From NCBI RefSeq assembly GCF_900109225.1, contig NZ_FNZK01000023.1, positions 1 through 64,000 of the forward strand: a DNA stretch of 64,000 nucleotides, given 5' to 3'. Positions 3,620 to 19,171 of this stretch are shown here, one piece after another; within the stretch, counting starts at the first letter, position 1; each line of letters opens with the position of its first letter. Under the pieces are notes generated by a model. The model ran no database searches. It saw nothing but the letters and a program-made list of their open reading frames with translations, and was not told the origin of the DNA. The translations under genes and the position numbers were made by a program. Source of the DNA: Propionispira arboris. Lineage in GTDB: Bacteria; Bacillota; Negativicutes; Selenomonadales; Selenomonadaceae.

Positions 3620-3636
3620 CTCTTGTAAAACCCCTT

Positions 3637-4101
3637 CTATTTTATAATTAAAACCGAACACTGTGCATTCGCTGTAACATATTTACTTACACTTCCCTGC
3701 CATATTCCAGAAAGGAAATTTAAGCCTCTACTCCCAATGACAATAACATCATAATGATTACGTTGGGCAAAATCTGTAATAGCAATCCCAGGTTCACCAA
3801 TTTCATAATACGTATGCCTAGGAATATGCTTAGGAATTAATTTTCCTGCATCTTTTAGCATGCTTTTCGCAAATGCCACAGGATTAGAACGGACTTCATG
3901 GGGTACTTTATCGCCGTGAATTTGTTTTTGCAACGGAGTTTGCTGCGAAAAAGTCAAGATATATAAAATACTGATTGTTGCCTGAGATAATTCCGCCATA
4001 TCAACAGCAGCGGCTATAGCCCGACAGGAATTTTCCGAACCGTCTATCGGAACTAATATTTGTTTATACTGTATACAAGACTTTGTATCTGGTTGATCCA
4101 T
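3637..4101 (-). CDS. UspA-type universal stress protein
   Basis: About 154 residues, single UspA domain. The N-terminal ILVPIDGS strand-loop and the C-terminal GSRG-9x-GS nucleotide-binding motif (G-2x-G-9x-G-S) are intact, so ATP binding is likely. The ATG at 4101 is preferred: it follows the pump stop codon by five bases and has GGAG in front. Earlier in-frame starts (TTG at 4116) overlap the pump gene. Its position between an RND pump and its outer membrane channel is unusual. Family members bind ATP or AMP and affect stress survival; a direct role in efflux is only an inference from context. Confidence 0.88.
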   Translation of the reverse strand: MDQPDTKSCIQYKQILVPIDGSENSCRAIAAAVDMAELSQATISILYILTFSQQTPLQKQIHGDKVPHEVRSNPVAFAKSMLKDAGKLIPKHIPRHTYYEIGEPGIAITDFAQRNHYDVIVIGSRGLNFLSGIWQGSVSKYVTANAQCSVLIIK

Positions 4102-4106
4102 AGTTA

Positions 4107-7100
4107 TCATCTCCAACTTGCTTTAGTTTGTTGACCTTCTTTACTTGGTTCCGCTTTATACCATGTTGCATACATAACCGGCAGTACCAATAAGGTCAAT
4201 ATTGTAGCTCCGGCTAAACCGAAAGCAATAGCAACAGCCATAGCTCCCCACATAACGCTTGAAACCAATGGAATCATAGCCAAAATCGCTGCTGTTGCTG
4301 TAAGTAAGATTGGTCTGAATCGCATAATTGTAGCATTAATAATTGAATCCCAAAGTGTTTGACCTGCATTAAGCAATTGATCAATCTGGTCAATAAGAAT
4401 TACCGAATTACGCATGATAATTCCTGCCAACGCTAAAATTCCCAATTGAACAACAAATCCCATTGGTCGTCCTGTTAAAATCAAGCCTATTGACACCCCG
4501 ATAAGTCCTAATGGTGCAGTTAAAAGTGTTAATACCATCTTGGGAATGCTCTGCAATTGTGTCATCAAAATAAGCATAATTATAATGAACATAGCCGGTA
4601 TAGGTACAGCGAGATATTTAGATGCCTTAATACTGTTTTCCATTGAACCATCAAAGTCAATACTGTACCCAAACGGCAGATTATCGCGAACATCTTTTAA
4701 CTCATCATATACCGCTTGTGTGACATCATTTCCCGTTACTCCTGATTTTACTTCTCCCTGTACTATAATCATCGGTTTGAGATCATAGCGATAGATAAGT
4801 CCCTCTTCCGCTTCATAGTTTATTTTAGCAATCTGATCGAGCGGAACATATGTACCATTTGCTGTACGGATATTCAGGTTTTTAAGATTTGATGGATCGT
4901 TTCGTTCCAAATTTTCAGAACGCAAAAGCATCTTGACCGTCTTATCTGTTTCTCTAAATTCAGCAATAGACGTACCCGAAACATTTGTCTGTAAAGCCCC
5001 TTTTATGGTTTGACTTGTAATTCCGAGAGCCCTCGCTTTATCCTGATCAATAGACAGATGAATCACCTTTGATTTTTCATCCCAGTTAAGTGCTGTCTTA
5101 GCTATCCCCTGGTTTTTCATCATTACGTTCTGTACATTTTCAGCAATTTCCCGTACTTTATCAACATCATAACCTCTGACCCTGAGCATAACCGGATACT
5201 CAGCCGGCGGTCCATTGCTGAGAAGTTTTGTATGGACGCGTATCCCCGGTAGATTGTTCTCTGCATTTTCTTTTATTTTTGCATCCAGTCTGTCTCTGGC
5301 TTCCTTGTTTTTAGCAACAATAACAAACTCGGAAAAATTTGTTTTATTAAATACCGGCTCATAGGCCAATACAAAACGCGGTGCTCCTTCACCAACATGA
5401 TAGGTGTAATAATCAATATCTGCATCACCCTTGAGCGTCTGAGCAAATTGATTTGCTCCCGCTTCGATATTTTTTAAAGAAGCCCCTTCTTGTAATTGCA
5501 GCTGTACGATAAGTTCCGGTCGCTTTGTCGCGCCAAAGAATTCCTTTTTTACATGCCCCAGAAGCGCGCATGATCCTATAAAACAAATGAGTGTTACGAT
5601 AAGCACCTTTTTACGATGCGTTAAAAATAAAATTAGTATTTTTTTGAACTTATTATAAAATCTGCTATCATATACAGACTTTTCAGGTTCACCATCTTTG
5701 CTTTCAATGGGTTTTACCTTGATAAATTGATATCCCAATAATGGTGTTACTGTACCGGCAACAATCCATGAGATAAGCAGCGATGCCGTTATAACCTGGA
5801 AAATTGACCCTACCGCTTCGGCTGCACTGCCAGGCGAAAAACCAATAGGAATAAACCCTGCACAAGTAACCATGGCACCACATAATCTTGGATAAGCCGT
5901 AGATGTATAAGCAAAGCACGTTGCATTAAACCGTGTCCAGCCTTGCTCAAGCTTTACTGATATCATTTCAATTGTAATAATTGCATCATCTACAAGCAGC
6001 CCCAGTGCAATAATTAGAGACCCCAGCGAAATATTCTGCAAAGATATGCCGTCTAAATACATAAACCCAAATACCGCAGCAATAACCAGAGGAATACAAA
6101 GTGCAACGATGATTCCCGAATGTACTCCCAGGCTCGCAAAACTAACAATTAAAACAATGATGATGGCTTCAGCCAACGAATGAACAAATTCATTAATAGA
6201 CGAGTCTACAACCTTTGGTTGATTCACTGTCTGATTTAGTGTTAAACCGGCTGGCAGTTCCTTTTTTATCTGGGCAACAGTTTTTTCTAAATTATCCCCC
6301 AGCGTCAAAATATTTCCACCAGACTCCATTGCAAGAGCAATACCAATGGTCGGCTCACCATTATAAAACATTTTCGGATCCTGCGGTTCTGCATAACTGC
6401 GTGTTATTTTTGCAATATCACCCAACCGAAAAGTTTTGCCATGTGCAGAAATAGGCGTATTACTAATGTCCTCTGCATCCTCGAACATTCCTGTAACTCT
6501 CAGGTATAAATCATCTGAATGTGTTTCCAGCATGCCCGCTGGAATCATTGAATTTTGTCCTTGCAATGTCTGCGCAATCAGATTCGGATCAATTCCAAGC
6601 TGAGCAAGTTTACTGTTTTCAATTTCAATATAAAATTTTTCAGTCTGAACACCGATAAGCTTAACTTTACGAACACTCGGCGTATCCAGCAGCATGCGTC
6701 GAATTTTTTCTGCTTTCTCACGTTTTTCTTCATAACTATAATCATTGCCCGTCAATGTATAAACAACACCGTAAACTTCATCAAAACGATCATTGAAGAT
6801 TGGTTCCAGCGCGCCCTCTGGTAAAGTTCCCTTCATATCATTGACCATATTACGAGTTTCCAGCCATAGATTACGTATTTGTTCCTTTGGAACGGTATCT
6901 TTTACATTTACATAAATTACAGTCTGCCCCGGCATAGAATAACTTTTCAAATAATCCAAACCAGGAAGATCCTGTAACTTCTTTTCAATTTTATCTGTTA
7001 CCTGTTCTTGCACCTCACCAGCAGTTGCACCTGGCCATGGCACACTGATGACCATTTGTTTGATTGTAAAATCAGGATCTTCCAACCGACCAAGATTTTT

Positions 7101-7199
7101 ATACGAAAATATCCCCACGACAAAGAGCAACACCACAAAGAAATATATATATTGTTTATGGTTTAGAGCCCATTCCGTTAAGTTGAAGCTTTTTTTCAT
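4107..7199 (-). CDS. RND-family efflux pump, inner membrane subunit
   Basis: A 1030-residue proton-driven exporter of the AcrB-like hydrophobe/amphiphile RND class, full length for the family. It has an N-terminal span, two large periplasmic loops and two groups of membrane helices. LLVDDAI near residue 400 carries the paired aspartates of the proton relay in TM4. The start ATG overlaps the adaptor stop codon (ATGA), so the two are likely co-translated. It forms a tripartite complex with the adaptor upstream and the TolC-type channel downstream. The substrate is unknown; drugs, solvents or bile-type compounds are typical for the class. Confidence 0.95.
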   Translation of the reverse strand: MKKSFNLTEWALNHKQYIYFFVVLLFVVGIFSYKNLGRLEDPDFTIKQMVISVPWPGATAGEVQEQVTDKIEKKLQDLPGLDYLKSYSMPGQTVIYVNVKDTVPKEQIRNLWLETRNMVNDMKGTLPEGALEPIFNDRFDEVYGVVYTLTGNDYSYEEKREKAEKIRRMLLDTPSVRKVKLIGVQTEKFYIEIENSKLAQLGIDPNLIAQTLQGQNSMIPAGMLETHSDDLYLRVTGMFEDAEDISNTPISAHGKTFRLGDIAKITRSYAEPQDPKMFYNGEPTIGIALAMESGGNILTLGDNLEKTVAQIKKELPAGLTLNQTVNQPKVVDSSINEFVHSLAEAIIIVLIVSFASLGVHSGIIVALCIPLVIAAVFGFMYLDGISLQNISLGSLIIALGLLVDDAIITIEMISVKLEQGWTRFNATCFAYTSTAYPRLCGAMVTCAGFIPIGFSPGSAAEAVGSIFQVITASLLISWIVAGTVTPLLGYQFIKVKPIESKDGEPEKSVYDSRFYNKFKKILILFLTHRKKVLIVTLICFIGSCALLGHVKKEFFGATKRPELIVQLQLQEGASLKNIEAGANQFAQTLKGDADIDYYTYHVGEGAPRFVLAYEPVFNKTNFSEFVIVAKNKEARDRLDAKIKENAENNLPGIRVHTKLLSNGPPAEYPVMLRVRGYDVDKVREIAENVQNVMMKNQGIAKTALNWDEKSKVIHLSIDQDKARALGITSQTIKGALQTNVSGTSIAEFRETDKTVKMLLRSENLERNDPSNLKNLNIRTANGTYVPLDQIAKINYEAEEGLIYRYDLKPMIIVQGEVKSGVTGNDVTQAVYDELKDVRDNLPFGYSIDFDGSMENSIKASKYLAVPIPAMFIIIMLILMTQLQSIPKMVLTLLTAPLGLIGVSIGLILTGRPMGFVVQLGILALAGIIMRNSVILIDQIDQLLNAGQTLWDSIINATIMRFRPILLTATAAILAMIPLVSSVMWGAMAVAIAFGLAGATILTLLVLPVMYATWYKAEPSKEGQQTKASWR

Positions 7200-8299
7200 A
7201 ACGAGTCACCACCGGATTTTACTTTTTGACCTTCTGTCAGCATATGTACACCTTTTGTTACAATGCAGTCACCTTCTTGTAAGCCAGATAAAACTTCAAC
7301 AGTATCAGATCCATAATTACCAACCTGAATCGGGCACAAGGAAAGTTCATCATCTTTAATTTTCCAAACTGCCGGAGTTTCGCTATTTTGATAAATTGCA
7401 TCAATAGGAATTTTCATCAAATTACCACCGCTCCGCGGTATACTTACGGTTGCCGTCATGCCAAGTTTCATGTCAGCTGGTGGACTTGGAATACTAATCC
7501 GCACTTTAAAGGTCCGTGTGCTTGGATCTGCCATCGGTGCAATTTCTCTGACAAAACCACTTACACTTTCATTGCCTAAAGCCCAAAAATTCACTTTAAT
7601 ATCCGGTGCCTGTCTTAAATCTTCAATACGATTTTCCGGCACATTAATTTCTATTTCACGTTCACCATCTTGTACTAAAGTGACAACAACCTGTCCCGGA
7701 CTTACCACATGTCCGACTTCGGCGGAAATACTCGATATGACACCTGATTTATCAGATTTCAGCAAACTATAGTCCATCTCATTAACACTCTGCGCGTATT
7801 GCGCCTGTGTCTGTCGTACTCTTGACGCACTTACATTATAGGCATTAACATATTTATCATATGTTGCCTGACTGATAACTCCTCCATTAACTAATTCCTG
7901 ATAACGGCTTAAATCGCTCTGTGCAAGTTCCAACTCCGATTGTGCGGAATCAACCAACGCAGAATTGTTATTTACTGTTTGCACAATATCCTTAGCATCA
8001 ATCTGCATAAGCACATCACCTGCACTTACTGAACTTCCCAACTGTACATTTCTACTGACAATTTTCCCCTTTACCTGAAACGCCAGTTTACTTTCATAAC
8101 GTCCTCTCACTTCCCCAGAATATGTATATTTTTGTGTGGCAGCATTTGCAGCAATTGTCATCGTATGTACCACAGTAATTTCTTCCTTGGCTACAGGTAC
8201 TTCATCTTTTCCTCTCAACAAAAATATCACTGCAAATCCTATAATTACAGTACCTAACAAAACAGCTGCTTTTTTTCTCTTTTTTAAAATATTCAACAT
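7196..8299 (-). CDS. RND periplasmic adaptor (membrane fusion protein)
   Basis: About 367 residues. A short basic N-terminus and one hydrophobic segment (AAVLLGTVIIGFAVIFLL) anchor it; the rest is periplasmic. Order: lipoyl-like half (AFQVKGKIVSRNVQLGSSV), a helical hairpin rich in Q, S and A, the second lipoyl half (GVISSISAEVGHVVSPGQ), then beta-barrel and membrane-proximal domains. The ATG at 8299 is chosen over one at 8347 because it gives a normal anchor start and has AGGAAG upstream, although the spacing is long. First gene of the efflux operon, with a palindromic operator about 75-100 bases upstream of the start. Confidence 0.93.
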   Translation of the reverse strand: MLNILKKRKKAAVLLGTVIIGFAVIFLLRGKDEVPVAKEEITVVHTMTIAANAATQKYTYSGEVRGRYESKLAFQVKGKIVSRNVQLGSSVSAGDVLMQIDAKDIVQTVNNNSALVDSAQSELELAQSDLSRYQELVNGGVISQATYDKYVNAYNVSASRVRQTQAQYAQSVNEMDYSLLKSDKSGVISSISAEVGHVVSPGQVVVTLVQDGEREIEINVPENRIEDLRQAPDIKVNFWALGNESVSGFVREIAPMADPSTRTFKVRISIPSPPADMKLGMTATVSIPRSGGNLMKIPIDAIYQNSETPAVWKIKDDELSLCPIQVGNYGSDTVEVLSGLQEGDCIVTKGVHMLTEGQKVKSGGDSL

Positions 8300-8372
8300 C
8301 TTCGTTTTACCACTTCCTATAGTTATATATTCCCCTATACTATTCAAAAAAACTTTTATAAATAACCCTAAT

Positions 8373-8398
8373 AATTATTTGACCGCGGTCAAATAATT
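8373..8398. promoter_or_regulatory. TetR-type operator of the efflux operon
   Basis: A perfect 26-bp palindrome with core TTTGAC-CGCG-GTCAAA. On the minus strand TTGACC within it could serve as a -35 box for the efflux operon. The same TTTGAC-N4-GTCAAA core recurs in front of the TetR gene at 9107-9122. Confidence 0.8.
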
Positions 8399-8463
8399 CG
8401 TTGAAAAAAACGCAACTCTAAACAAATTTTTAGAATTACGGTTTCTCTCGCATATTTTTTATT

Positions 8464-9081
8464 TTATAAATTAAAATGAATGGATCCTTTCTTGCTCTGC
8501 AATAGACTTTCGATCATATTTTCTGCCATTTTTAGTCGCATTTGCAACATGTCACCAGGTAATTTTTTATAAAACAGTTCAATAAGAAAACCTAAAATCA
8601 ATATAAGAAATTCAAGTACTGCTTCTTCCTGTTCAACAAAGAACTCTTTTTTTTCCTTGCCTTCCGCAATAACTTTTTTCCCCATATTCATAAACGAATT
8701 TCCACAATAAGAAGTTACTTTTTCCTTAATATACAAATTTTTCTCATCATAAAGAATACTTAAAAGTTCACCATCTTGATAAAAAACTCCATAAATTACT
8801 ATCTCAAACATGCGTCCAATTTTCTCAGACGGCATAATGCTCTCTGAATCAATCATCTGTTTTATTTCACTTAAAAACAAATCTGAATGACGCTTCAGCA
8901 ATACTTCTAACAATTCCTCCTTCGATTTAAAATAATAATAAAGCATACCTTTTGCTACACCCATTTCTTTAGCAACACCACTTATTGTAGTTTTACGATA
9001 GCCCATATTAATAAAGCATTTTTGTGCAACATCTAAAATTTCATTAATTCGAATTTCAGGGTCTTGTGGTGTTCTTGCCAT
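8464..9081 (-). CDS. TetR/AcrR-family repressor, likely of the efflux operon
   Basis: A 205-residue TetR-family regulator. Residues 10-60 form the helix-turn-helix: AQKCFINMGYRKTTI, then GVAKGMLYYYFKSKEEL, the classic recognition helix and its following helix. The rest is a helical ligand-binding domain typical of multidrug-sensing members. It is encoded upstream of the efflux operon in the same direction. Matching palindromes in front of it and in front of the adaptor gene suggest it represses itself and the pump until a ligand binds. The ribosome site before the ATG is weak (TTAGG), and the promoter region lies very close, so the leader may be short. Confidence 0.92.
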   Translation of the reverse strand: MARTPQDPEIRINEILDVAQKCFINMGYRKTTISGVAKEMGVAKGMLYYYFKSKEELLEVLLKRHSDLFLSEIKQMIDSESIMPSEKIGRMFEIVIYGVFYQDGELLSILYDEKNLYIKEKVTSYCGNSFMNMGKKVIAEGKEKKEFFVEQEEAVLEFLILILGFLIELFYKKLPGDMLQMRLKMAENMIESLLQSKKGSIHFNL

Positions 9082-9090
9082 CCTAATTCA

Positions 9091-9138
9091 CATCCATATA
9101 CTATATTTTGACCACAGTCAAATTATAGTATATGGATG
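9091..9138. promoter_or_regulatory. Autoregulatory operator of the TetR gene
   Basis: A 48-bp inverted repeat centred at 9114-9115 with only three mismatched pairs. The core TTTGAC-CACA-GTCAAA matches the operator at 8373-8398. TTGACT on the minus strand overlaps the core and can act as a -35 box, with TATA-like sequence towards the gene. The symmetry gives similar sequence on the plus strand too. Confidence 0.75.
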
Positions 9139-9489
9139 CCATTTTTGTCAACAATTTTCAGCTTTGGATTCAATTATTGTTTTGAAAAAACAAGTACCTA
9201 TTACTGCATAGCTTTGCCAAAGCAATAATTCCATATATAAAAATACCTCATAGATACAATATAACGTACACCTAAGTACTTTTCGTTAGAGAATTTCGAG
9301 TATACTACTAACAAGATTATATTAATGCTTGAATTTATTAGCGTTAAATCGAACTTAATAATTTACGTGAATACTTCAAGTTTAATATAGACGATAAAAA
9401 TTTTACAATATATAATATAAATAATGTTGTGTCATTTCAATTTTTTGATTTAAAAAATCACGATTCGTAGAAAGAAGGTCACTATTTGT
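9139..9489. other. Intergenic region upstream of the MarR gene
   Basis: About 350 AT-rich bases. A weak dyad (GAACTT near 9353 with AAGTTT near 9378) could be a MarR-type operator. AAGAAGG before 9490 is the ribosome site. No gene seen. Confidence 0.4.
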
Positions 9490-9942
9490 ATGGAATATGT
9501 TGATCGTAAAGAACTTTCCGCTAGATTTATTGATTCTTTTCATGCCTTTAATAGTAATTTTTTTCAAAAAATAAACTATCCTATAGCAGCCAATCACTGG
9601 ATATCGTTATGTATTTTAGATTCTTATGGACCATTGACCGCCACGGCATTAGGCAATCACTTATCTATTTCAAAGCAACAAGTACTTCAAATCATTAATA
9701 AATTATGTAAAGATGGTTATATTAGCCGTCAAACAGCTCTTAGTGATCGCCGCTACAAAAATATTACACTGACCGAAAAAGGTCATAAAATTATTATGAA
9801 CGAAATAAGACTATTAACATTGGTATTTGAAAATAAAATTGATATTTTAACAGATTTAGAGCTCACAAAATTTGACGAAGCAATAAAAACATTTGTACCT
9901 TTGTTTGAGAAAATATATATAATTAACAAGGAACCTACGTAG
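9490..9942 (+). CDS. MarR-family transcriptional regulator
   Basis: A 150-residue winged helix-turn-helix protein. The DNA-binding core runs from about residue 50 to 100: LTATALGNHLSIS, then QQVLQIINKLCKDGYI as recognition helix, and SDRRYKNITLTEKG as wing, all typical of MarR. The flanking helices form the dimer interface. The ATG has AAGAAGG about 11 bases upstream. MarR proteins often control efflux, oxidative stress or adhesion genes, usually next door. Here the next gene on the same strand encodes a secreted protein of unknown role, and the TetR-controlled pump lies on the other side. The target is unknown. Confidence 0.9.
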   Translation: MEYVDRKELSARFIDSFHAFNSNFFQKINYPIAANHWISLCILDSYGPLTATALGNHLSISKQQVLQIINKLCKDGYISRQTALSDRRYKNITLTEKGHKIIMNEIRLLTLVFENKIDILTDLELTKFDEAIKTFVPLFEKIYIINKEPT

Positions 9943-10292
9943 CAAACGAAAGGACTATCAACTAAAAGGGAGGTATCTAAAAATTGGATAATAGCCATTA
10001 TTTTAAAATTTCAATTGAACGAATCATTAAGTAGTAATAGAATATAATAAGTGTAGTTCTAAAATGTTATTTTTATGGCAAAACGCATTCGCAACTGAAT
10101 TATTGAACCGGAATCTGATTCAAAATTAACGGAGATTGTAAAAGTCAGTAAACCAAAGCCTTTAAAAGTGTTTTTAGAATACAATACAAGTAAATCAGTA
10201 CATGACAACGTCTAACTAAATACTTTAATAATACAAATAAATTTTAAATAGTATTACACAAAAATTTTAATTGTGAGAGGAAGCTAATCATT
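9943..10292. other. Intergenic region with possible decayed reading frames
   Basis: AAGGGAGG at 9966-9973 is followed by TTG at 9984 and a 16-codon frame to 10034. From 10075 (ATG) a frame runs to 10215 with one in-frame stop at 10096-10098; the remaining 38 codons (with KVSKPKPLKVFLEYN) look protein-like. Neither is a recognised gene. They may be relics of a lost gene, or chance. GAGAGGAAG just before 10293 is the ribosome site of the next gene. Confidence 0.3.
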
Positions 10293-10913
10293 ATGAAAAA
10301 AATATTTATTAAATTATTTTCTATTTTACTTTGTACTACGATATTATCATTTATATCAAATACCCCACTCTTTGCAGCAGCAGATACTACTCCAACTACG
10401 GCAACAGCAGCTTCAACCAAACATGCATATATCCCTGGAAAAACCAGGATTGTACTAGCATTACTTAATACAATAGATTCTAAAACAGCACATACTGGAG
10501 ACATAATAAATTTTAAAACATTAGATAATGTTAAAATTAATGGTGTTATCGTGATTCCTGCAGGGACAATTGCGAACGGAAAAATAACAAAAGCTGTATC
10601 TGCCGGATCTTTTGGTAAAGGTGGCAAACTCGAGTTTTCTGTGACATCTATAAAAACTCTAAATGACATAGACGTCCCATTATTATGTAATGCTTCTTAT
10701 GTCGGAACGAAACAAATTCAAAGCAGCAGTGGTATAAGTGCTGTCGGAAGTGCGGTACAAAATTTATTTTCAGGTGGCAACAATGTCCAGTGTTTGATGG
10801 GAATGAGCATTGACTCAATTGTTACCACAGATACTGATTTAAATATATCTATTTCCGATTTATCGAGTACGATGCAAACATTTAAAGAACATGATGTAAA
10901 TATCACCCTATAA
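10293..10913 (+). CDS. Secreted protein of unknown function
   Basis: 206 residues. A clear signal peptide spans about residues 1-29 (basic start, then a long hydrophobic stretch, cut near FAAA). A Thr/Ala-rich linker follows (about 30-42). The rest looks beta-rich: a segment around ARIVL-type strands, then KTAHTGDIINF, then GVIVIPAGTIANGKI, a pattern seen in surface proteins where a hydrophobic IPAGT strand follows a G-D turn. The protein has two cysteines after the signal peptide (CNASY, QCLMG). No catalytic motif is visible and I do not recognise a named family. It follows a MarR gene on the same strand, 350 bases away, so shared control is possible but not shown. Confidence 0.75.
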   Translation: MKKIFIKLFSILLCTTILSFISNTPLFAAADTTPTTATAASTKHAYIPGKTRIVLALLNTIDSKTAHTGDIINFKTLDNVKINGVIVIPAGTIANGKITKAVSAGSFGKGGKLEFSVTSIKTLNDIDVPLLCNASYVGTKQIQSSSGISAVGSAVQNLFSGGNNVQCLMGMSIDSIVTTDTDLNISISDLSSTMQTFKEHDVNITL

Positions 10914-10969
10914 GTCGCCCCCAGCCCCCTTTTCCACGTCTCCAGTTAAGGACGCAGCACCTATTGCAA

Positions 10970-11041
10970 TAATATAAAATTGAAACGGCTGAGGATATTC
11001 AAAATGCACTGAAAAGTTTACTTGATGCTTCTATCAATTGA
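10970..11041 (+). mobile_element. Probable relic of an IS256-type transposase
   Basis: A 22-codon stretch between two stop codons reads ETAEDIQNALKSLL. This resembles the N-terminal region of IS256 (Mutator-type) transposases, where a TxEDIxxxLKxLL pattern is common. Nothing else of the element remains in this gap. The match is short, so this is tentative. Confidence 0.4.
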
Positions 11042-11132
11042 CCGAACTTTCAACTTAATATTTGTCGAAAAATGCCGATATATTATTGGGTATATATAAA
11101 ATCTAAAGTAATAAAAAGAAGGTGTATGTGTG

Positions 11133-11492
11133 ATGTCAGTATCAATCAGTACCCAAGCAGCAACTCCGGTAGCCAAAGTAGCTCCGGCAGCCCAAACAGC
11201 CCCTGTAGCCCAAACGAGTTCGACGGATACGACAAATGTATCAACTACGGTTACTTCGACTGATCCTTCTGTTTTACAAAACCAAATAAATAAACTTTCA
11301 AGTGCTGTAACACAATTGCAGCAAAGTGGTGGAAGTTCAAGTCAGATTCAAAAGTTCCAACAAGCAGAGCAAACCGCTAAAAACCAAATCCTAAAACAAA
11401 AACATTTAGAGGAAGCAAAAAAAGCAGCTGAACAATCATCCAATATTCAAACAGCAGTTAAGGAAAATGGGGGGCTTGATATTCAAGCTTAA
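11133..11492 (+). CDS. Small low-complexity protein, FlxA-like
   Basis: 119 residues, no signal peptide. The first 45 residues are rich in Ala, Thr, Pro and Val (repeated VAQT and APVAQ units). The second part is a likely coiled coil with spaced Gln and Leu (LQNQINKLSSAVTQLQQ), then a charged helix (KQKHLEEAKKAAEQ). The Q-rich helix with QINKL and QLQQ spacing is like the FlxA-like family, which is poorly understood. ATG at 11133 has AGAAGG about 10 bases upstream. A strong terminator follows at 11600, so it is likely a single-gene transcript. Confidence 0.65.
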   Translation: MSVSISTQAATPVAKVAPAAQTAPVAQTSSTDTTNVSTTVTSTDPSVLQNQINKLSSAVTQLQQSGGSSSQIQKFQQAEQTAKNQILKQKHLEEAKKAAEQSSNIQTAVKENGGLDIQA

Positions 11493-11599
11493 TTTTTGAA
11501 GGTTGATAACTACAAAATTGGAGTTTCATTCTCGTTAGGATGGCATTCTTGATTTTGTGAAAATTCCATTTGGTGTAAAAGAGTATATGATTTTTTATG

Positions 11600-11632
11600 G
11601 GGCAAAACAGTCACGGGGCTGTTTGCCCTTTA
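11600..11632 (+). terminator. Intrinsic terminator after the FlxA-like gene
   Basis: GGGCAAAACAG (11600-11610) pairs with CTGTTTGCCC (11619-11628, one bulged base), followed by TTTATTT. Confidence 0.8.
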
Positions 11633-11639
11633 TTTACAT

Positions 11640-11873
11640 TATACTGATAAACTGGCCCTCTTGCGAGGCGGTAAAAAAACACGTCATTAACATCTGATAC
11701 TGGGATGCATCAGGTCGTTTTCGTCTCATAATATTGGCTGGTGTTGCTGACCTGAATGAAACAATATACCCGAAAGAATGTGTCTCAGTGCAAATCGATC
11801 CGCTTGCGAGGTAAATTTAGGTCGGTGGTATCCCGCTTTCACCCGTTAAACTCCTCCCCTGGCAGCACACCAC
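11640..11873. other. Unexplained GC-richer segment with repeats
   Basis: This stretch looks less AT-rich than the genes beside it. CTTGCGAGG occurs twice (about 11660 and 11802). Hairpins are possible: CTGAT with ATCAG (about 11693-11712), and CAGGTC with GACCTG (about 11711-11755). On the plus strand 39 codons (11698-11814) are open and look protein-like, but a stop lies directly before them and no start is seen. It may be a structured RNA or a decayed gene. Confidence 0.35.
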
Positions 11874-11915
11874 AAAAAAGCGAGGTGCCACGCTAATTTC
11901 TTAGTGTGACACCTC
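11874..11915 (-). terminator. Intrinsic terminator of the small secreted protein gene
   Basis: A 15-bp stem (11882-11896 with 11901-11915, two G-U type pairs) with loop TTTC. On the minus strand it is followed by GCTTTTTTG (11874-11881). Confidence 0.85.
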
Positions 11916-11962
11916 ATTTATCTATTTCAGTAATTAGTTGAACAAAACATTACCAGCAAAAC

Positions 11963-12250
11963 TCATAATTCGTGAGCTGGGCTAAGGGAAACATTTTCGC
12001 CGTCTGAACCATTGGTAGCATTACTTTGATTGCTGCCAGTACTCATTACATGAGCTACACTTATTGATGTGTTTTGTTCATCCTTGTTAGTGACTTGCTT
12101 ACCGTCATTACCACTGCCATAAACAACACTCATATTTACGGTTGCTTGGTCTAAAGCAGATGCATGCACTGCTGTATTACTAAAGCCTAAGCCAAAAACT
12201 GCTGCTGCCATAAGACCGCTTACTACTAATTTGTTTAAATTTTTATTCAT
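11963..12250 (-). CDS. Small secreted protein of unknown function
   Basis: 95 residues from ATG at 12250, which has AAAGGGAG eight bases upstream; an in-frame start 24 bases earlier lacks a ribosome site. Signal peptide at about residues 1-31 (NKLVVSGLMAAAVFGLGF, cut near VHASA). The mature part, about 64 residues, is rich in Ser, Asn, Gly and Thr, with no cysteine. It has two loosely similar units, each built as N/E-x-SxS-x-AH (SISVAHV and SLSPAHEL). No family recognised. It has its own promoter region with a palindrome and direct repeats, and its own terminator, so it is a regulated single gene. Confidence 0.75.
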   Translation of the reverse strand: MNKNLNKLVVSGLMAAAVFGLGFSNTAVHASALDQATVNMSVVYGSGNDGKQVTNKDEQNTSISVAHVMSTGSNQSNATNGSDGENVSLSPAHEL

Positions 12251-12354
12251 GATATTTACTCCCTTTATTTCCATAAGTATATGGACTCTTTTTATATTTT
12301 AAGTAACTATCGAAAGAAAACATTCTGTAAGTTCTCTGCGATAACTTATATTAT

Positions 12355-12374
12355 ATATATTACAGGTAATATAT
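12355..12374. promoter_or_regulatory. 20-bp palindrome in the promoter region of the small secreted gene
   Basis: A perfect AT-rich palindrome with core TTAC-AG-GTAA. It lies between a likely -35 (TTCATA) and -10 (TATAAT) on the minus strand, so a bound protein would block the promoter. Confidence 0.5.
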
Positions 12375-12408
12375 GAAGATGTTGTGAAGAACTTTTGAAG
12401 ATATTGTG
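12375..12408. promoter_or_regulatory. Direct repeats typical of a response-regulator site
   Basis: GAAGATGTTGTG (12375-12386) and GAAGATATTGTG (12397-12408) are direct repeats with one mismatch and a 22-bp period, two helix turns. They sit just upstream of the likely -35 box of the 12250 gene, a place where OmpR/PhoB-type activators bind. No such regulator gene is in the window. Confidence 0.5.
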
Positions 12409-12470
12409 TCTTTTTTATAGAACACGCAGCTCTTCTATCTGTCAAAACCAACATGCCTGATCAAATGAGA

Positions 12471-12513
12471 AAAAGCGAAACTTGTATGTGCATCACATAC
12501 GAGTTTCGCTTTT
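12471..12513. terminator. Bidirectional terminator after the floA operon
   Basis: 20-base arms (12471-12490 and 12494-12513), one mismatch, 3-base loop, with A-run on one side and T-run on the other. It ends the minus-strand nfeD-floA operon. Confidence 0.85.
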
Positions 12514-12527
12514 TTATGGACAGTTTC

Positions 12528-13025
12528 TTATTTATTTTTCATTTGATTGAAATAAGGATTTGCTACCGTTTGATAGGCTTTAGGACGTTCCAAAATTTGC
12601 GCGTAAGCCATCGCACTTAAAATCACATTTGTATGAATATCCGTCGATTGCTGATGATGCTTAACGGTTGCTGGTACCTTGGTTTCTTGTTCATACTGAG
12701 CATGATCTTTTGCTTTTTGTTCATGTCTATGCTCTAAATAATAAGCATATTTATTTTTTTCAGTCGCTATTGGCGGGCTTTGCACGATTACCTCAGGTTC
12801 AATATAAACACCTTCGGTTTCACGTTGTGGTGCGCCTTTTATTGGAGGAATGACAATATCGGGTTCATTTTTCTTTCCGCCAAAATCAACATCAATCCGG
12901 CGATTTTTCGGTGCTGATCTCGTTGGTACTGGCGGAACATGTTTTCCTTTTTTCTTATTGCTTTCAATAGCATCGTTAATGACCGCAAACGCCACAAAAG
13001 CAATGACAATTAATACCAGTTCCAT
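12528..13025 (-). CDS. Membrane-anchored protein of unknown function next to floA
   Basis: 165 residues. One N-terminal membrane span (LVLIVIAFVAFAVI), then a basic stretch (ESNKKKGKH) and a long polar, Pro-rich tail with no clear domain. A likely helix lies near the C-terminus (NVILSAMAYAQILERP). It starts six bases after the floA stop and is surely co-transcribed with nfeD and floA. Its place in this operon suggests a role with flotillin membrane domains, but this rests on context only. Confidence 0.75.
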   Translation of the reverse strand: MELVLIVIAFVAFAVINDAIESNKKKGKHVPPVPTRSAPKNRRIDVDFGGKKNEPDIVIPPIKGAPQRETEGVYIEPEVIVQSPPIATEKNKYAYYLEHRHEQKAKDHAQYEQETKVPATVKHHQQSTDIHTNVILSAMAYAQILERPKAYQTVANPYFNQMKNK

Positions 13026-13031
13026 ATTATC

Positions 13032-14030
13032 TTATTTCACCGGTGGCGGATTTTTAAGCTGTCCATCAGAACCAGCTTGGCTGATTGCTTCACGCATTTG
13101 CGTATCCGCATTAATATTTTTCAAATTATAATAATCCATCACACCAAGTTTACCTTCACGCAATGCGGCCGCCATCGCATGAGGAACTTCTGCTTGCGCT
13201 TCAACAACTTTTGCTTCCATCTGCTGGGTATAAGCTTTCATTTCCTGTTCGGTTGCCACAGCCATAGCACGACGTTCTTCTGCTTTCGCCTGAGCAATAC
13301 GTTTATCTGCTTCTGCCTGATCCGTCATCAATTCAGCACCGATATTACGACCTACATCAACGTCAGCAATATCAATGGATAAGATTTCAAATGCCGTTCC
13401 GGCATCAAGCCCTTTTCCGAGAACTGTTTTGGAAATGTCATCTGGATTTGCCAAAACATCCGTATGACTATTCGCTGAACCTACTGTCGTTACAATACCT
13501 TCACCAACTCTGGCAATAATAGTCGGCTCCCCGGCACCACCAACAAGGCGGTCAATATTCGCACGAACAGTAACTCGCGCTTTAATTTTAAGTTCAATCC
13601 CGTTTTTAGCAACTGCCGAAACAATCGGTGTCTCAATCACCTTTGGATTGACACTCATCTGTACAGCCTGCAGCACATCACGACCAGCCAAATCAATGGC
13701 TGCCGAACGTGCAAAAGGAAGTGGTATTTCCGCGCGGTGAGCCGCAATCAAGGCATCAATGACCTTATCTACATTCCCACCCGCTAAATAATGCGCTTCC
13801 AACTGGTTTACCGATACATCAATACCAGCTTTGTTGGCTTTAATAAGAGGCAAAACTATATTCGATGGTGGTACACGCCGAAGCCGCATCCCCACCAATG
13901 TAAAAATGCCAACAGACACATTCGCAGCAAGTGCTGAAATCCATAAGCCCAATGGTACAAAATGCAAGAACAACATAACAAATGCTATGACTACGACTAA
14001 TAAAAATCCTGATCCTAAGATCACATCCAT
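13032..14030 (-). CDS. floA: Flotillin-like protein FloA
   Basis: 332 residues, the usual length of FloA (UPF0365). An N-terminal hydrophobic hairpin ([21 protein letters not shown]) inserts in the membrane. It is followed by the conserved Firmicute FloA core ([19 protein letters not shown], then [14 protein letters not shown]) and a Glu/Ala-rich coiled coil near residues 240-300 ([18 protein letters not shown]) that drives assembly. FloA marks functional membrane microdomains in Firmicutes. GGAGGA lies before the ATG. It sits downstream of nfeD, its usual partner. Confidence 0.96.
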
Positions 14031-14065
14031 AAAAATATCCTCCTCTAGTTTACTTCGTCCACATT

Positions 14066-14710
14066 TTAATTTTCTATTTGTTTTCGAACGACAATGCGAC
14101 TGCCATTAACCATTATAACCGTCACGGCTTCCCCCCTTTTAATATAGGTCCCCTCCGAAACTACATCAAAAGGGCCTTCATCAATAATGGCCGTTCCAGC
14201 CGGGCGAAGCTCTGTTAATGCTACACCGTTTTTACCCAATAAATGCGTATAATCTTTGGCACTCACATAACCAAGCGTCGCCGTTGAAGTATCCGTCAGC
14301 AAAACTTTTTTCCATAAACGGCTTGATGGCAGCTTTTTTAAAATTAATGCAAACAGGATGATTGCAATCACTACAGCCATTAAAATAGCATAAATTGCTT
14401 CACTCGTACCGCCGAGAGACAACACTAAACTATAGAGCATCGCACCAATACCAATACCCGCAAAAATCCCTGCTCCTGGCGTCAGCATTTCAATGCCAAT
14501 GCATAAAACCCCACCTAAAAATATTGCTATTTCAAAAAAGCTGACCAGTCCATTTACATATTGACTGCCGAAAAACACAGCCGCGGCAACAATCCCCAGC
14601 AAGGTTCCCAGTCCCATACCACCAGTTTTTATTTCAACTAAAACCGCTAAAAACATAATGGCTACCAATAAGATTTGAACTATAGGCAAGCCCATCACTT
14701 CAATTTGCAT
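14066..14710 (-). CDS. NfeD-family membrane protein
   Basis: 214 residues. Four to five membrane spans fill about residues 10-125 ([46 protein letters not shown]). The C-terminal part (150-214) is the soluble OB-fold domain of NfeD, with [14 protein letters not shown], then [19 protein letters not shown]. The serine protease domain found in long NfeD proteins is absent; short forms like this pair with flotillins. AAGGAGG precedes the ATG by six bases. First gene of the nfeD-floA-unknown operon. Confidence 0.93.
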
Positions 14711-14847
14711 AACATGCCTCCTTCCCGTTCAGCTACTGAACCAATTTGATCTCTATTTACAGTCTATATAGAACTCATTTCACACATATATTTAATTCCA
14801 CAAATTCCTCATGAATCCCTGCATTTTCGAAAGATAAGCAGCGAAAA

Positions 14848-14881
14848 AAAACTGACATCGTGTAAAAACGATGTCAGTTTT
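14848..14881. terminator. Intrinsic terminator after yqeY
   Basis: 13-base arms AAAACTGACATCG and its complement, loop TGTAAAAA, with A and T runs at the edges. It ends the minus-strand rpsU-yqeY transcript. Confidence 0.85.
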
Positions 14882-14983
14882 ATGAAAAGCATAGCGACTG
14901 CCAGCAATTCTATGAAATTTTACAACGCCCCTTCAACCAAGATGAGGTTCGTTCATTGCATCTGTTTAAAACAGTCTTTATTC

Positions 14984-15436
14984 TTATAGATTCAATATTT
15001 CGCGTACAATGGTATTCACAAGCTTACCATCTGCACGACCTTTAACTTTAGGCATCAAGAGTGCCATTACCTTGCCCATTTCTTTTTGTGATGAAGCACC
15101 GCTAGCCGTTACAGCTTCCTTAACAAGGCTGCGAATTTCATCTTCAGAAAGTTGTACAGGCAGATACGACATCAATACTACAATTTCAGCTTCAACTTGC
15201 GCAACAAGATCTTCGCGATCTCCTTTTTTGAATTCTTCAATAGAATCTTTACGCATTTTGACTTCTTTACTGATGATATCAATTACTCCATTGTCATCGA
15301 GCTCTTTTTTACCATCAATTTCGACTTGCCGAAGTGCAGACCGAACCATACGAATTACAGAAAGACGTTGCTTTCCTTCTTCTTTCGCTTTCATGGCGGT
15401 CTTCATGTCTTCAGTCAATTGTTCTTTAAGTGACAT
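14984..15436 (-). CDS. YqeY/GatB-like domain protein
   Basis: 150 residues, all YqeY domain. This family is related to the tRNA-binding tail of GatB amidotransferase subunits; its exact role is not settled. Typical motifs: SLKEQLTEDMKTAMKA at the start, RLSVIRMVRSAL, and KEMGKVMALLMPKVKGRADG near the end. The ATG at 15436 is chosen from the family's length and start; a longer open frame upstream runs over rpsU and is not real. It follows rpsU by 22 bases, the common Firmicute arrangement. Confidence 0.95.
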   Translation of the reverse strand: MSLKEQLTEDMKTAMKAKEEGKQRLSVIRMVRSALRQVEIDGKKELDDNGVIDIISKEVKMRKDSIEEFKKGDREDLVAQVEAEIVVLMSYLPVQLSEDEIRSLVKEAVTASGASSQKEMGKVMALLMPKVKGRADGKLVNTIVREILNL

Positions 15437-15458
15437 TAAAATTCCCCCGAAACGAAAA

Positions 15459-15638
15459 TTAAGCTTTAAATTTGCGTTTGCGCGCAGCTTCGGACTTCTT
15501 TTTACGTTTAACACTAGGTTTTTCGTAATGCTCACGTTTTCTAACTTCAGCTAAAGTACCAGCTTTTTGGCAAGTACGTTTAAATCTGCGGAGTGCACTA
15601 TCGATTGTTTCGTTTTTTCCAACTTTAACTTCTGACAT
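15459..15638 (-). CDS. rpsU: 30S ribosomal protein S21
   Basis: 59 residues, very basic, fully typical for S21: it opens with [20 protein letters not shown] and ends in a Lys/Arg tail ([14 protein letters not shown]). S21 binds the 30S platform near the anti-Shine-Dalgarno region and helps start translation. GGAGAAATAG leads into the ATG at 15638. It lies in frame with neither neighbour and is followed by yqeY. Confidence 0.97.
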
Positions 15639-15727
15639 CTATTTCTCCCCCCCTCCACTTGACATGGGAGTGTACTGCTTAACTACACCTAAATATTATA
15701 CATGAACTAGGGTTTTATTGTCAACTC

Positions 15728-16078
15728 TTAACCTGGTGGCCATGTCATTGATCTTCCACCTAACAAATGAAAATGGAGATGCGACACCGTCTGTCCGCCA
15801 TCGACTTTGGTATTGACCACGACACGAAATCCCTTTTCATCCACGCCTAATTCTTTAGCAATCTTCGGAATTACTTCACCCATAATATGGGAAAGCAATT
15901 CTTGATCTGAAGCAGCAACATCCAGGAGGTTAGCAATATGCTTTTTTGAGACAACCAGCACATGTATAGGTGCCTGTGGTTCTAAATCCTTAAAAGCAGC
16001 AACAGATTCATCTTCATAAACAAACTTGGTTGGTATCTCCTTGTTTGCTATTTTACAAAAAATGCAATCAGTATGCAT
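15728..16078 (-). CDS. HIT-family nucleotide hydrolase (HinT-like)
   Basis: 116 residues. CxxC pair near the N-terminus (CIFCKI), then the conserved core (FKDLEPQAPIHVLVVSKKHI) and the histidine triad H100-L-H102-F-H104 followed by LLGG. Members act as nucleoside phosphoramidase or AMP-lysine hydrolases; the substrate in this cell is not known. A hairpin separates it from mtaB upstream. Confidence 0.95.
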   Translation of the reverse strand: MHTDCIFCKIANKEIPTKFVYEDESVAAFKDLEPQAPIHVLVVSKKHIANLLDVAASDQELLSHIMGEVIPKIAKELGVDEKGFRVVVNTKVDGGQTVSHLHFHLLGGRSMTWPPG

Positions 16079-16114
16079 AATGCACCTCCTTTCGGTAAAA
16101 AAATCTTTCCAGAT

Positions 16115-16144
16115 ACAAAGATACAGTTTATACTGTATCTTTGT
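16115..16144 (-). terminator. Hairpin between mtaB and the HIT gene
   Basis: A 13-bp perfect stem (16115-16127 with 16132-16144). On the minus strand the T-run after it is poor, so it may be a partial terminator or an mRNA end structure. Confidence 0.5.
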
Positions 16145-16190
16145 TTACTTCGGCTTTTTTTAGCATATTCCTGCTAAAAAATAAATTTTA

Positions 16191-17483
16191 TCAACAAATT
16201 TTCCCCCATAAACCATCACGATATATTTTTTCAATATGAACTTGATAAATTTCGCCACAATCAATTCGGTCATTGACATAAACGCGAATATAATTTCCTG
16301 TAAGTCCATCAAAAACCCCATCATGATTTGCTTCAAATAAGACAGAAACATCCGATCCAATAAAACCTTCATGAAAAGCTGCCGCCTTCGCATCTGCCAT
16401 TTTCTGCATGATATGAACCCGCTGTTTTTTTACAATTTCAGGAACTTGATTCTTCATCGTGGCAGCTGGGGTGCCAGCCCGCTTCGAATAAGGGAAAACA
16501 TGCATCTTGGCAAAATTCATAGATTTCGCAAATGCCAGCCCCTGTTCAAACATTTCATCTGTTTCACCAGGAAACCCAACAATAATATCCGTTGATATAG
16601 CGATCCCCGGTACAGACTCTTCTACATACGTAATAAGCCGTCCAAACTCCTCGGTTGTATAGTGACGGTTCATAGCTTTCAAAATGTCATCCTGTCCTGC
16701 TTGCAGCGGTAAATGGAGATGTGGGCTAAAGCGATCATCGGCGCAAATCAAATCAAATAAGTTCTTTGATAATTCAATGGATTCTAACGAACCCAGCCGC
16801 AATCTTTTTAAGTTTGGTATTGTTAAAACAAGCCGCGCCGCGTCTACCAGATTGATATCGTCCGACAAATCACGCCCATATGCACCTAAATGAATCCCCG
16901 TTAAAACAATTTCTTTAAAACCCGCCTCAACTAATTTTTCTGCTTCGACTTTAATACTGCTTAGTTTTCGTGAGCGCAGTGGTCCGCGCGCATATGGAAT
17001 AATGCAGTACGAACAAAAATTTGAACAGCCTTCTTGTATTTTTAAAAAAGCCCGTGTACGTCCCGGCATATCAAATAAAGGTATATCTTCAAATTCTGTA
17101 GCTTTCATGATATCCGTAACATCCATAATAAGATTATGTTCCTCGGCTGCACGTTCAACCAGATCAACTATTTTGCTGCGTTCTTTCGTACCAATCACAA
17201 CATTCACACCCTCAATAGCTTGAATCTGTTCTGGAGCAATCTGTGAATAACAGCCAGTTACAGCGATAATAGCTTTGGGGTTAAGCCTTTGGGCGCGACG
17301 AATCAGCTGTCGTGATTTTTTCTCGCCCAAATGCGTAACCGAACAAGTATTAATAATATAAAAATCGGCTTGATCCGCAAAAGAAACCGTTTCGTAGTTT
17401 CTTTTTTTGAATAAACCTTCCATGACTTCAGTTTCAAATTGATTTACTTTACATCCCAAAGTCGTTAAGGCAACTTTTGGCAA
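16191..17483 (-). CDS. mtaB: tRNA t6A37 methylthiotransferase MtaB
   Basis: 430 residues, radical SAM enzyme that turns t6A at tRNA position 37 into ms2t6A. Order: N-terminal UPF0004 domain with TLGCKVNQFETE and INTCSVT (cysteines for the second iron-sulfur cluster), radical SAM CSNFCSYC (C-x3-C-x2-C) near residue 150, then a C-terminal TRAM-like RNA-binding region. The MtaB rather than MiaB or RimO call rests on the N-terminal sequence and on the neighbourhood after rsmE. It starts four bases after the rsmE stop. Confidence 0.95.
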   Translation of the reverse strand: MPKVALTTLGCKVNQFETEVMEGLFKKRNYETVSFADQADFYIINTCSVTHLGEKKSRQLIRRAQRLNPKAIIAVTGCYSQIAPEQIQAIEGVNVVIGTKERSKIVDLVERAAEEHNLIMDVTDIMKATEFEDIPLFDMPGRTRAFLKIQEGCSNFCSYCIIPYARGPLRSRKLSSIKVEAEKLVEAGFKEIVLTGIHLGAYGRDLSDDINLVDAARLVLTIPNLKRLRLGSLESIELSKNLFDLICADDRFSPHLHLPLQAGQDDILKAMNRHYTTEEFGRLITYVEESVPGIAISTDIIVGFPGETDEMFEQGLAFAKSMNFAKMHVFPYSKRAGTPAATMKNQVPEIVKKQRVHIMQKMADAKAAAFHEGFIGSDVSVLFEANHDGVFDGLTGNYIRVYVNDRIDCGEIYQVHIEKIYRDGLWGKIC

Positions 17484-17486
17484 AAC

Positions 17487-18230
17487 TTACAAACTCCTTC
17501 CACCTAGATCTCCATTTTCATACATAACGAGGCTCACAGCTACTAATGATGCTGTTTCACTGCGTAAAATACGAGGTCCCATCGTCACAGTACGAACGCC
17601 ATTTTTCAGACAAAGCTCCACTTCTTCTGGTGTGAAACCACCTTCGGGTCCAATCAAGACAAAAAATCGTCGTGCTGTGTTATGTCTTAAAAAATCACGA
17701 ATTGGAACATCTGCCCGACCTTCATAGCAAATGAAGGCAACGATATCTGAATCTAAGTTTTCTAATACTTCTTTTAATCTAACAATCGGCTCTACAACCG
17801 GTTGTATCGTACGTCCACATTGTTTTGCAGCTTCATCGGCAATTTTCTGCCACTTGGTTCTTCTTGCTATTTGTTTTGCTGCATCATATTTAACTACACA
17901 ATTCGTACTGATGACTGGCACGATTGAACTTACACCAAGTTCCACAGCTTTTTGAGCAATAAAATCCATTTTATCCGCCTTGGGCAGACATTGTGCCAAA
18001 ACAACCTCAATGGGTGCTTCCGTATTGGCATTCATTTGTTTAAGACACTTTAGGGTTATCTCCCCATTGGCAAAAGCAATAATTTCAGCTTCAGCAATCG
18101 TTTGGGATGAATCCACCACAACCAGCTTCTGGCCAATTTTAGCGCGCAGAACATGCATAATATGATGTCCATCTGTACCACTTATTTTGATTTCATCCGC
18201 TAGCAATCCATCAATAAAGACTCGTCTCAC
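17487..18230 (-). CDS. rsmE: 16S rRNA m3U1498 methyltransferase RsmE
   Basis: 247 residues. SPOUT-class methyltransferase that modifies U1498 of 16S rRNA. An N-terminal PUA-like region (HHIMHVLRAKIGQ) is followed by the trefoil-knot SAM site (FFVLIGPEGGFTPEEV, then LGPRILRSETA-type ending, here MGPRILRSETASL). The start is GTG at 18230 and overlaps the prmA stop (GTGA), so translation is coupled. Standard prmA-rsmE-mtaB order. Confidence 0.97.
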   Translation of the reverse strand: MRRVFIDGLLADEIKISGTDGHHIMHVLRAKIGQKLVVVDSSQTIAEAEIIAFANGEITLKCLKQMNANTEAPIEVVLAQCLPKADKMDFIAQKAVELGVSSIVPVISTNCVVKYDAAKQIARRTKWQKIADEAAKQCGRTIQPVVEPIVRLKEVLENLDSDIVAFICYEGRADVPIRDFLRHNTARRFFVLIGPEGGFTPEEVELCLKNGVRTVTMGPRILRSETASLVAVSLVMYENGDLGGRSL

Positions 18231-19171
18231 ACTGTCGTTCCTCCATTGCGAATTACCATAGCAGCCCAGCCGCCCTCTTCGAGCACCCGATCAACCAAAA
18301 GTCCATGAGCAATAACAGCTTCCGTAACATCACCAAGACGATCGGCAATAATGCCGCTGGCAATCATGCTGCCGCCTATTTTAAGTTTATTTGGAATATC
18401 ATCAAGCAAAACAATAATGATATCGGCAATAATATTGGCAATTATAAGATCCGCTTTCCCTTCAATCCCTTTTAAAAGGTCGCCACGGCCAACCGAAATG
18501 ATTGAATCAGCCTGATTGATTGCCACATTTTCGCTAGCAACAGTGACAGCAACCGGATCAAAGTCTACCGCTGTGACTTCAGTAGCCCCTAGTTTAGCGG
18601 CGGCAATTGCTAAAACTCCAGACCCCGTACCAACATCAAATACCTTCATGCCGCCAGTAACGATTTCTTCTAAAATCCGAATGCACATAGACGTAGTTGG
18701 ATGTGTCCCGGTTCCAAAGGCCATGCCGGGATCAAGCTCGATGACAATGTCATCCGGACTTGCCGTATACTCTTCCCATGATGGTTTAATTACGATGATA
18801 TCGCCAATTTTTTCCGTATGGAAATACTTTTTCCAATTATTAGCCCAGTCTTCATCTTGAATTTCACTATAAGAAATATCCCCTGTACCTTTATCAATAT
18901 CATGGCCTGCTAAGGCATCGACTTCTTTTTCAAAAGCACGAAGTTTATCATCCAATTCTTCGTCCATTGGCAAATAGGCTCTAACCGTAACAACTTCGGT
19001 ATTTGTTGCTTCGGGTATATCCGTATAATCCCATGTTCCTGAATTACGATATGTATTCACCAGTTCAGGATCTTCGATAACGACTCCTGAAGCTCCCAGA
19101 TCATGAAAGATTTCCGCGATCAATTCCGTTGCCTCATGCGTTGTTCTTATACTAACTTCAGCCCATTTCAC
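18227..19171 (-). CDS. prmA: Ribosomal protein L11 methyltransferase PrmA
   Basis: 314 residues, full length. N-terminal L11-binding domain, then a Rossmann methyltransferase domain: AFGTGTHPTT near residue 175 (signature), VFDVGTGSGVLAIAAA (SAM loop), and DLIIANIIADII (catalytic-site strand). It methylates lysines and the N-terminus of L11. In Firmicutes it commonly lies downstream of dnaJ, as here, with a 157-base gap holding a hairpin. Confidence 0.97.
   Translation of the reverse strand: MKWAEVSIRTTHEATELIAEIFHDLGASGVVIEDPELVNTYRNSGTWDYTDIPEATNTEVVTVRAYLPMDEELDDKLRAFEKEVDALAGHDIDKGTGDISYSEIQDEDWANNWKKYFHTEKIGDIIVIKPSWEEYTASPDDIVIELDPGMAFGTGTHPTTSMCIRILEEIVTGGMKVFDVGTGSGVLAIAAAKLGATEVTAVDFDPVAVTVASENVAINQADSIISVGRGDLLKGIEGKADLIIANIIADIIIVLLDDIPNKLKIGGSMIASGIIADRLGDVTEAVIAHGLLVDRVLEEGGWAAMVIRNGGTTV

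Follow-up and report, generated by a model that had tools for sequence, protein, structure and literature searches.

Three genes downstream of a MarR-type regulator

The analysed window is a stretch of 64,000 nucleotides from Propionispira arboris, a two-membraned Firmicute with a genome of 4.26 Mb in 40 contigs. Three small open reading frames lie at positions 10293-12250, namely P1 (10293-10913, forward strand), P2 (11130/11133-11492, forward strand) and P3 (11963-12250, reverse strand). P1 encodes an exported protein of 206 aa in which the model, the fold match and the family delimit a VirB10-CTD-like domain at approximately residues 44-190. P2 encodes 119 or 120 aa, modelled as a Gln-rich helical hairpin with a disordered Ala/Pro/Gln tail and without a signal peptide, and P3 encodes an exported, Ser/Asn-rich peptide of 95 aa that carries one AHVMSTGSN unit. 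The frames are real and lie where a preliminary description of this DNA had placed them. It had also counted two exported proteins among them, in agreement with the Sec-type signal peptides that we recognised by reading at the N-termini of P1 and P3. We compared the window with P. raffinosivorans DSM 20765 (G001), which aligns with positions 3003-18682 in two blocks of 97.8 and 94.6 % DNA identity, and P1, P2 and P3 are all kept in place within the second block (9314-18682). Substitutions between the two species look protein-coding, with dN/dS values of 0.36 for P1 (a weak estimate from 11 changes only), 0.26 for P2 and 0.11 for P3.

The genes on the left flank are TetR- and RND-efflux-like by reading. 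A MarR-type regulator, already reported for this stretch, is encoded upstream of P1 (9490-9942, forward strand; PF01047, E 7.6e-9; PHROGs P0004, 2.2e-10). Between this gene and P1 lies a degenerate repeat (9998-10178, forward strand), whose two pieces are 89 % and 82 % identical to a second copy on another contig of the same genome (G000:C5:3430-3680). The preliminary description had spoken of mobile DNA relics in the plural; we found this one relic of ~180 bp and nothing further here as evidence of mobile DNA. A 410-aa ORF follows the C5 copy, and the frame is broken in both copies. A ComM-like C-terminal part, named by reading, is split into two frames (2-295 and 241-507) at positions 2-507 of the window, and a ComM-like fragment also occurs at the end of contig C5. 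The interval 11493-11962 has no second copy anywhere in the genome, and an Rfam scan of the window returned only a T-box and tRNAs, all outside 10293-12250. On the right flank are a 165-aa protein, FloA (PF12127, E 5.5e-162) and NfeD.

Neither Pfam nor NCBIfam gave a row for P1 or P3 at E values up to 10, and the rows for P2 were all below the curated cut-offs, so the earlier statement that none of the three belongs to a well-known family held up. PHROGs gave weak rows only for P1, P2 and P3, and a search of viral contigs retrieved no relatives of P2, P3, the P1 profile or the profile of the long P1 relatives described below. What did not survive was the description of the genes as a cluster. 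P3 is convergent to P1 and P2 and has its own promoter region with a regulator-type site, and a paralogue of P3 lies elsewhere in the genome. Relatives of P1 occur in varied neighbourhoods, and P2 and P3 are restricted to Propionispira among 120 genomes (two genomes for each gene, with two copies of P3 in both). A single operon or cluster of the three was rejected, given the opposite strands and a repeat site that, among the three, stands only at P3. Taken together, P1, P2 and P3 are three independent genes; the observation was right and the grouping was wrong. The suggestion of a surface or stress factor fared better in part: the response-regulator-type box upstream of P3 speaks for it, and for P1 an envelope role fits the VirB10-like fold.

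P1, its class-wide family and a predicted VirB10-type domain

The structure model of P1 was built from 11 sequences and reached a mean pLDDT of 71.7, with block means of 79-95 for residues 41-140, 39-49 for residues 141-160 and 80-90 for residues 161-190. A Foldseek search of the PDB with this model placed chains of type IV secretion system (T4SS) outer-membrane complexes (VirB10/CagY/ComB10/TrwE/DotG) in all of the best 22 rows, 11 of them at E ≤ 0.001, with modest TM-scores of 0.28-0.46. VIA-align gave eight rows with Z 8.5-9.4 (Xanthomonas 6gyb_C 9.4, CagY 9.2, TrwE 8.7 and ComB10 8.5; rmsd 3.8-4.5 Å over 125-136 residues), values to be read with the program's own note that middling Z scores are common, and 14 T4SS rows stood ahead of the first unrelated row (Z 3.9). 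Searches of viral predicted structures with the model returned a Powai lake megavirus protein (E 7.3e-5), mimivirus L591 (E 2.7e-3) and phage VirB10.

At the sequence level, PF03743 (TrbI/VirB10) gave no row for P1 at E ≤ 10 and no match in the whole genome at the same threshold, and PDB sequence searches with P1 and its profile returned chance rows only. The signal appears in the relatives of P1: eight of 19 family members weakly matched TrbI PF03743 (best E 7.1e-5), five of the 19 matched Transposon_TraM, and VirB10-type NCBIfam rows were each found in one of the 19 P1-type members (E 0.006-0.02). PF03743 is matched at E ≤ 0.01 in 36 of 200 genomes from the class, and in 23 of these above its cut-off. 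We aligned 12 of 22 VirB10 loci (L078-L099; loci for alignments were picked by score, not randomly), and the P1 profile matched the profile of these 12 C-terminal domains with E 8.4e-5, a probability of 60 % and the motifs in register. The model and the profile comparison thus support assigning the P1 domain to the beta type of the VirB10 C-terminal domain. No description of a VirB10-like protein in Negativicutes was found in our literature search.

The P1 family was matched in 113 of 120 genomes, including that of P. arboris (E ≤ 0.001), by frames of two sizes, ~170-260 aa as in P1 and 300-425 aa, and P. arboris encodes one of each. P1 reads as a stand-alone VirB10-CTD-like protein of a class-wide family, with export predicted from its signal peptide. 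The short forms have varied gene neighbourhoods. Two P1-type proteins (L020, 1450-2172; L060, 5740-6753) carry a C-terminal excisionase-like HTH after the VirB10-like domain, in one of them as PF12728 (E 1.7e-11) and in the other by reading, an odd feature in exported proteins.

The long form of ~310 aa matched the short, P1-type form in hhalign with E 7.9e-31 and a probability of 99.9 %. Compared alone with the VirB10 profile, it gave no match (E 0.011, probability 3.9 %), and a Pfam scan of ten long forms (E ≤ 10) gave no TrbI row; four frames of 309-352 aa, candidate long forms from the 200-genome search, reach PF03743 with E 0.001-0.01. By this homology, P1 is a shortened paralogue, or a short branch, of a Negativicutes-wide exported family that includes the long form. 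In Propionispira, the long form (G000:C28:207941-208867) comes after OmpM-like genes and one for an exported protein of 148 aa, and the gene behind it encodes an LptD-like protein of 504 aa (names by reading). In seven of the 11 long-form loci read (L049, L024, L027, L028, L029, L030 and L032), the next ORF downstream is LptD-like, and the remaining loci have other genes (L018, L021), a transposase-like ORF (L025) or a contig edge (L023) at this place. All five LptD-like ORFs that were scanned matched LptD_N (E 3.7e-6 to 0.047), two of them over the cut-off.

This position recalls Veillonella parvula. The passages of Poppleton et al. that deal with it (PMC5491611) describe an uncharacterised outer-membrane-fraction protein, Vpar_0646, which is encoded directly upstream of lptD; it is presented there as being without a domain or homologue and is proposed as an LptE equivalent. 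A later paper (PMC10665443) raises the question of whether other proteins stand in for the absent Lpt and Bam lipoproteins. We infer that the long form corresponds to Vpar_0646 from its position only. The family to which P1 belongs also contains a candidate for the outer-membrane Lpt partner that is missing. With a fold of the VirB10 type, the Vpar_0646-type family would gain a structural class, and the question of replacement would become testable.

A Gly-rich hydrophobic segment with LGPxG and an N-terminal part were present in all ten aligned long forms and absent in P1. We compared the stretch before the last strands, where VirB10 carries its membrane antenna, with borders set by us and hydropathy taken as the best 15-residue value. 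The antenna is 62-72 residues long in the 12 VirB10s, with hydropathy of 1.27-1.94, and the corresponding region is 52 residues in ten of ten long forms (2.15-2.27). In P1 this region has 36 residues and a value of 0.83, not hydrophobic, and values over 19 short forms ranged from 0.25 to 2.61. Because of the low hydropathy of this region, whose borders we set ourselves, P1 is probably soluble in the periplasm, and by the same measure the long form may be in contact with the membrane. The long form could act as an outer-membrane accessory, with its Gly-rich segment at the place of the VirB10 antenna, and P1 would be its soluble counterpart in the periplasm, docking to a partner in the envelope.

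The fold of P1 is that of VirB10 in T4SSs, some short forms lie near ORFs that read as integrase- or resolvase-like (L043, L047), and a repeated-DNA relic stands just upstream of P1. P1 could on these grounds be what is left of a conjugative element: a VirB10 of which the last domain alone has persisted, by chance or as cargo. A plasmid search with P1 retrieved a single Sphingobium hypothetical protein (E 7e-6). We regard a remnant as quite improbable: the family is present nearly throughout the genomes searched, P1 is far nearer to the LptD-neighbour form than to VirB10 by the E values given above, and PF03743 is unmatched in the genome. The likeness to VirB10 might instead be that of a generic small beta-barrel, and P1 would then have no part in an envelope machine and might, for instance, bind a ligand in the periplasm. 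The low TM-scores, the lost hydrophobicity of the antenna region and the frequency of middling Z scores would agree with this, but the T4SS rows exceed the unrelated ones by 4-5 Z units, and the TrbI matches in eight of 19 members together with the VirB10 profiles form an independent sequence signal, leaving a generic barrel unlikely. We therefore prefer a VirB10-type domain in P1. As a long shot, outer-membrane assembly in diderm Firmicutes might regularly include a VirB10-type barrel that serves no secretion machine; the long form would then be the missing LptE equivalent or an outer-membrane ring, T4SS VirB10 and this family would share an origin in envelope biogenesis, and P1 would be a specialised soluble offshoot.

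P2 and the promoter repeat of P3

In the P2 model, helices at residues 45-65 and 69-112 are preceded by the disordered tail. P2 is 89 % identical to the P. raffinosivorans form, in which the Ala/Pro/Gln tail is 29 residues longer. An FlxA-like identity of P2 was rejected, as no FlxA Pfam row appeared for P2 at E ≤ 10 or for the P. raffinosivorans form at E ≤ 0.1. Two overlapping matches to terminator-like stems follow P2 (11605-11629, forward strand; four in the region in total against a shuffle mean of 1.7). P2 may be a cytoplasmic, genus-specific helical hairpin that acts with a partner.

A wider search for P3 covered 250 genomes and retrieved matches in 16 at E ≤ 0.1; apart from that in its own genome, they were weak. 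P3 and its paralogue have a common protein start, and their upstream regions are similar, not identical. The paralogue contains three AH[VS]MS[TL]GSN units, and P3 contains one plus the beginning of a further unit, cut short by a stop; the mature parts hold two His and two Met among 65 residues in P3 and three of each among 74 in the paralogue. Upstream of both genes stands CTTCAAAAGTTCTTCACAACATCTTCA. It contains a triple CTTCA direct repeat with an 11-bp period, a predicted response-regulator site, which lies at 12374-12400 (reverse strand) before P3. A pattern search of the genome with CTTCA-N6-CTTCA-N6-CTTCA, allowing up to one mismatch, identified three sites, all exact, and none with the reversed control. 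These sites precede P3, its paralogue and, on C21, an OmpR-type response regulator with a histidine kinase, the third site differing by one base from that of the other two, and P. raffinosivorans has the same three. Sigma-70-like hexamers (TTCATA-16-TATAAT; 12350-12377, reverse strand) overlap the last repeat, although such hexamers are no commoner in the region than in shuffles (17 versus 15.3).

Judged by the conserved site, P3 most probably belongs to the targets of an OmpR-type regulon, with binding predicted from the site. The response regulator would activate P3 by binding the three CTTCA repeats, which overlap the -35 region, and would also control its own gene and the P3 paralogue. P3 might then use its H-x-M unit to buffer metal or stress in the periplasm, the weakest step of this scheme. 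The site defines a small, checkable putative regulon of three promoters.

Exact triple repeats were found at 43 sites in 23 of 100 genomes, including our own, against seven for the reversed control. Site surroundings were covered in 12 of the 23 genomes, ten of them besides Propionispira; ten f1 genomes (eight of ACTTCAA type, plus G030 and G056), G093 and the contig G089:C15 lay outside this reading. ACTTCAA at 11-bp spacing is seemingly a different box (G004, G010, G017, G027, G043, G050, G052 and G060); its genomes belong to the window's family, and some have more than three repeats. Six of the ten other genomes (G077, G107, G106, G095, G076 and G089) have, within ~2.5 kb of a site, a two-component gene or one of the CusB-like, outer-membrane-efflux or metal-ATPase type (Pfam examples: CusB-like, OEP and HMA-ATPase). 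G077 has eight sites in 17 kb. Genes for a two-component system, for CusB-like and efflux proteins and for small exported proteins rich in Met and His accompany them in the surrounding region (L129/L130; G077:C1:3962000-3992000), and this locus is likely a metal regulon. Elsewhere, a response regulator lies 3.9 kb from the site in G082, which also has a HAMP-HD protein of 453-454 aa nearby, and such a protein is the only one of note near the site in G091. A DUF6803 gene stands at sites in G074 and G107 and an SBF-family transporter at that of G090, and one of the two sites in G107 is without two-component, efflux, metal-ATPase or DUF6803-type neighbours.

The Propionispira regulator is 65-67 % identical to the site-adjacent regulators of G077, G107 and G076 and 53 % identical to another regulator at the G095 locus. 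Taken together with the neighbours of these sites, the three-promoter set of P3 probably descends from a metal-efflux type regulon, and P3 may bind metal. P3 could as well serve a general envelope-stress response and bind no metal, the regulator having changed its signal in Propionispira. The low His and Met content of P3 would suit such a role. Moreover, the two-component genes here are not beside metal genes, and the Propionispira kinase is without the Met-containing loop present in the kinases of G077, G107 and G076, and therefore the signal may differ. Against it stand the related regulators elsewhere, with sites near CusB-like, OEP or HMA-ATPase genes, and two weak outside matches to P3, which are Met-rich exported proteins by a DUF2933 gene and near an RND fragment; no phased TTCA pair was found within 300 bases upstream of these two. 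We give the envelope-stress role a little less than an even chance.

Comparison with known systems

Overall, we favour, with moderate confidence, a locus in which P1 is a VirB10-type exported protein, P2 a helical hairpin and P3 an OmpR-type target. The closest structural relative of P1 is the VirB10/TrbI C-terminal domain (PF03743; PDB 6gyb, 6x6s/6x6k, 8rt6, 3jqo and 2bhv), with which P1 shares the predicted beta-barrel fold and the order of the conserved 'IP-GT' and 'G-T-V-D-L' motifs. Unlike VirB10, P1 has neither the N-terminal cytoplasmic and linker part nor a long hydrophobic antenna, and T4SS genes are absent among the ORFs read at 6000-17000. With the Vpar_0646-type family of LptD neighbours, P1 shares the homologous C-terminal domain of the long form, but P1 is shorter, having neither the N-terminal part of ~150 residues nor the Gly-rich segment, and no LptD-like gene adjoins it.

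For P3, two known systems offer comparison. Regulons of CusR/CopR-like OmpR-family regulators include small exported proteins, and SilE/PcoE-like exported metal-binding peptides have a His/Met-rich mature part that binds metal. P3 differs from the small exported proteins of the CusR/CopR-like regulons in being Ser/Asn-rich with few His and Met residues, and Propionispira has only three sites, none of them at efflux genes. What the P3 set has in common with the CusR/CopR-like regulons is the regulator family, the phased direct-repeat site and the small exported target.
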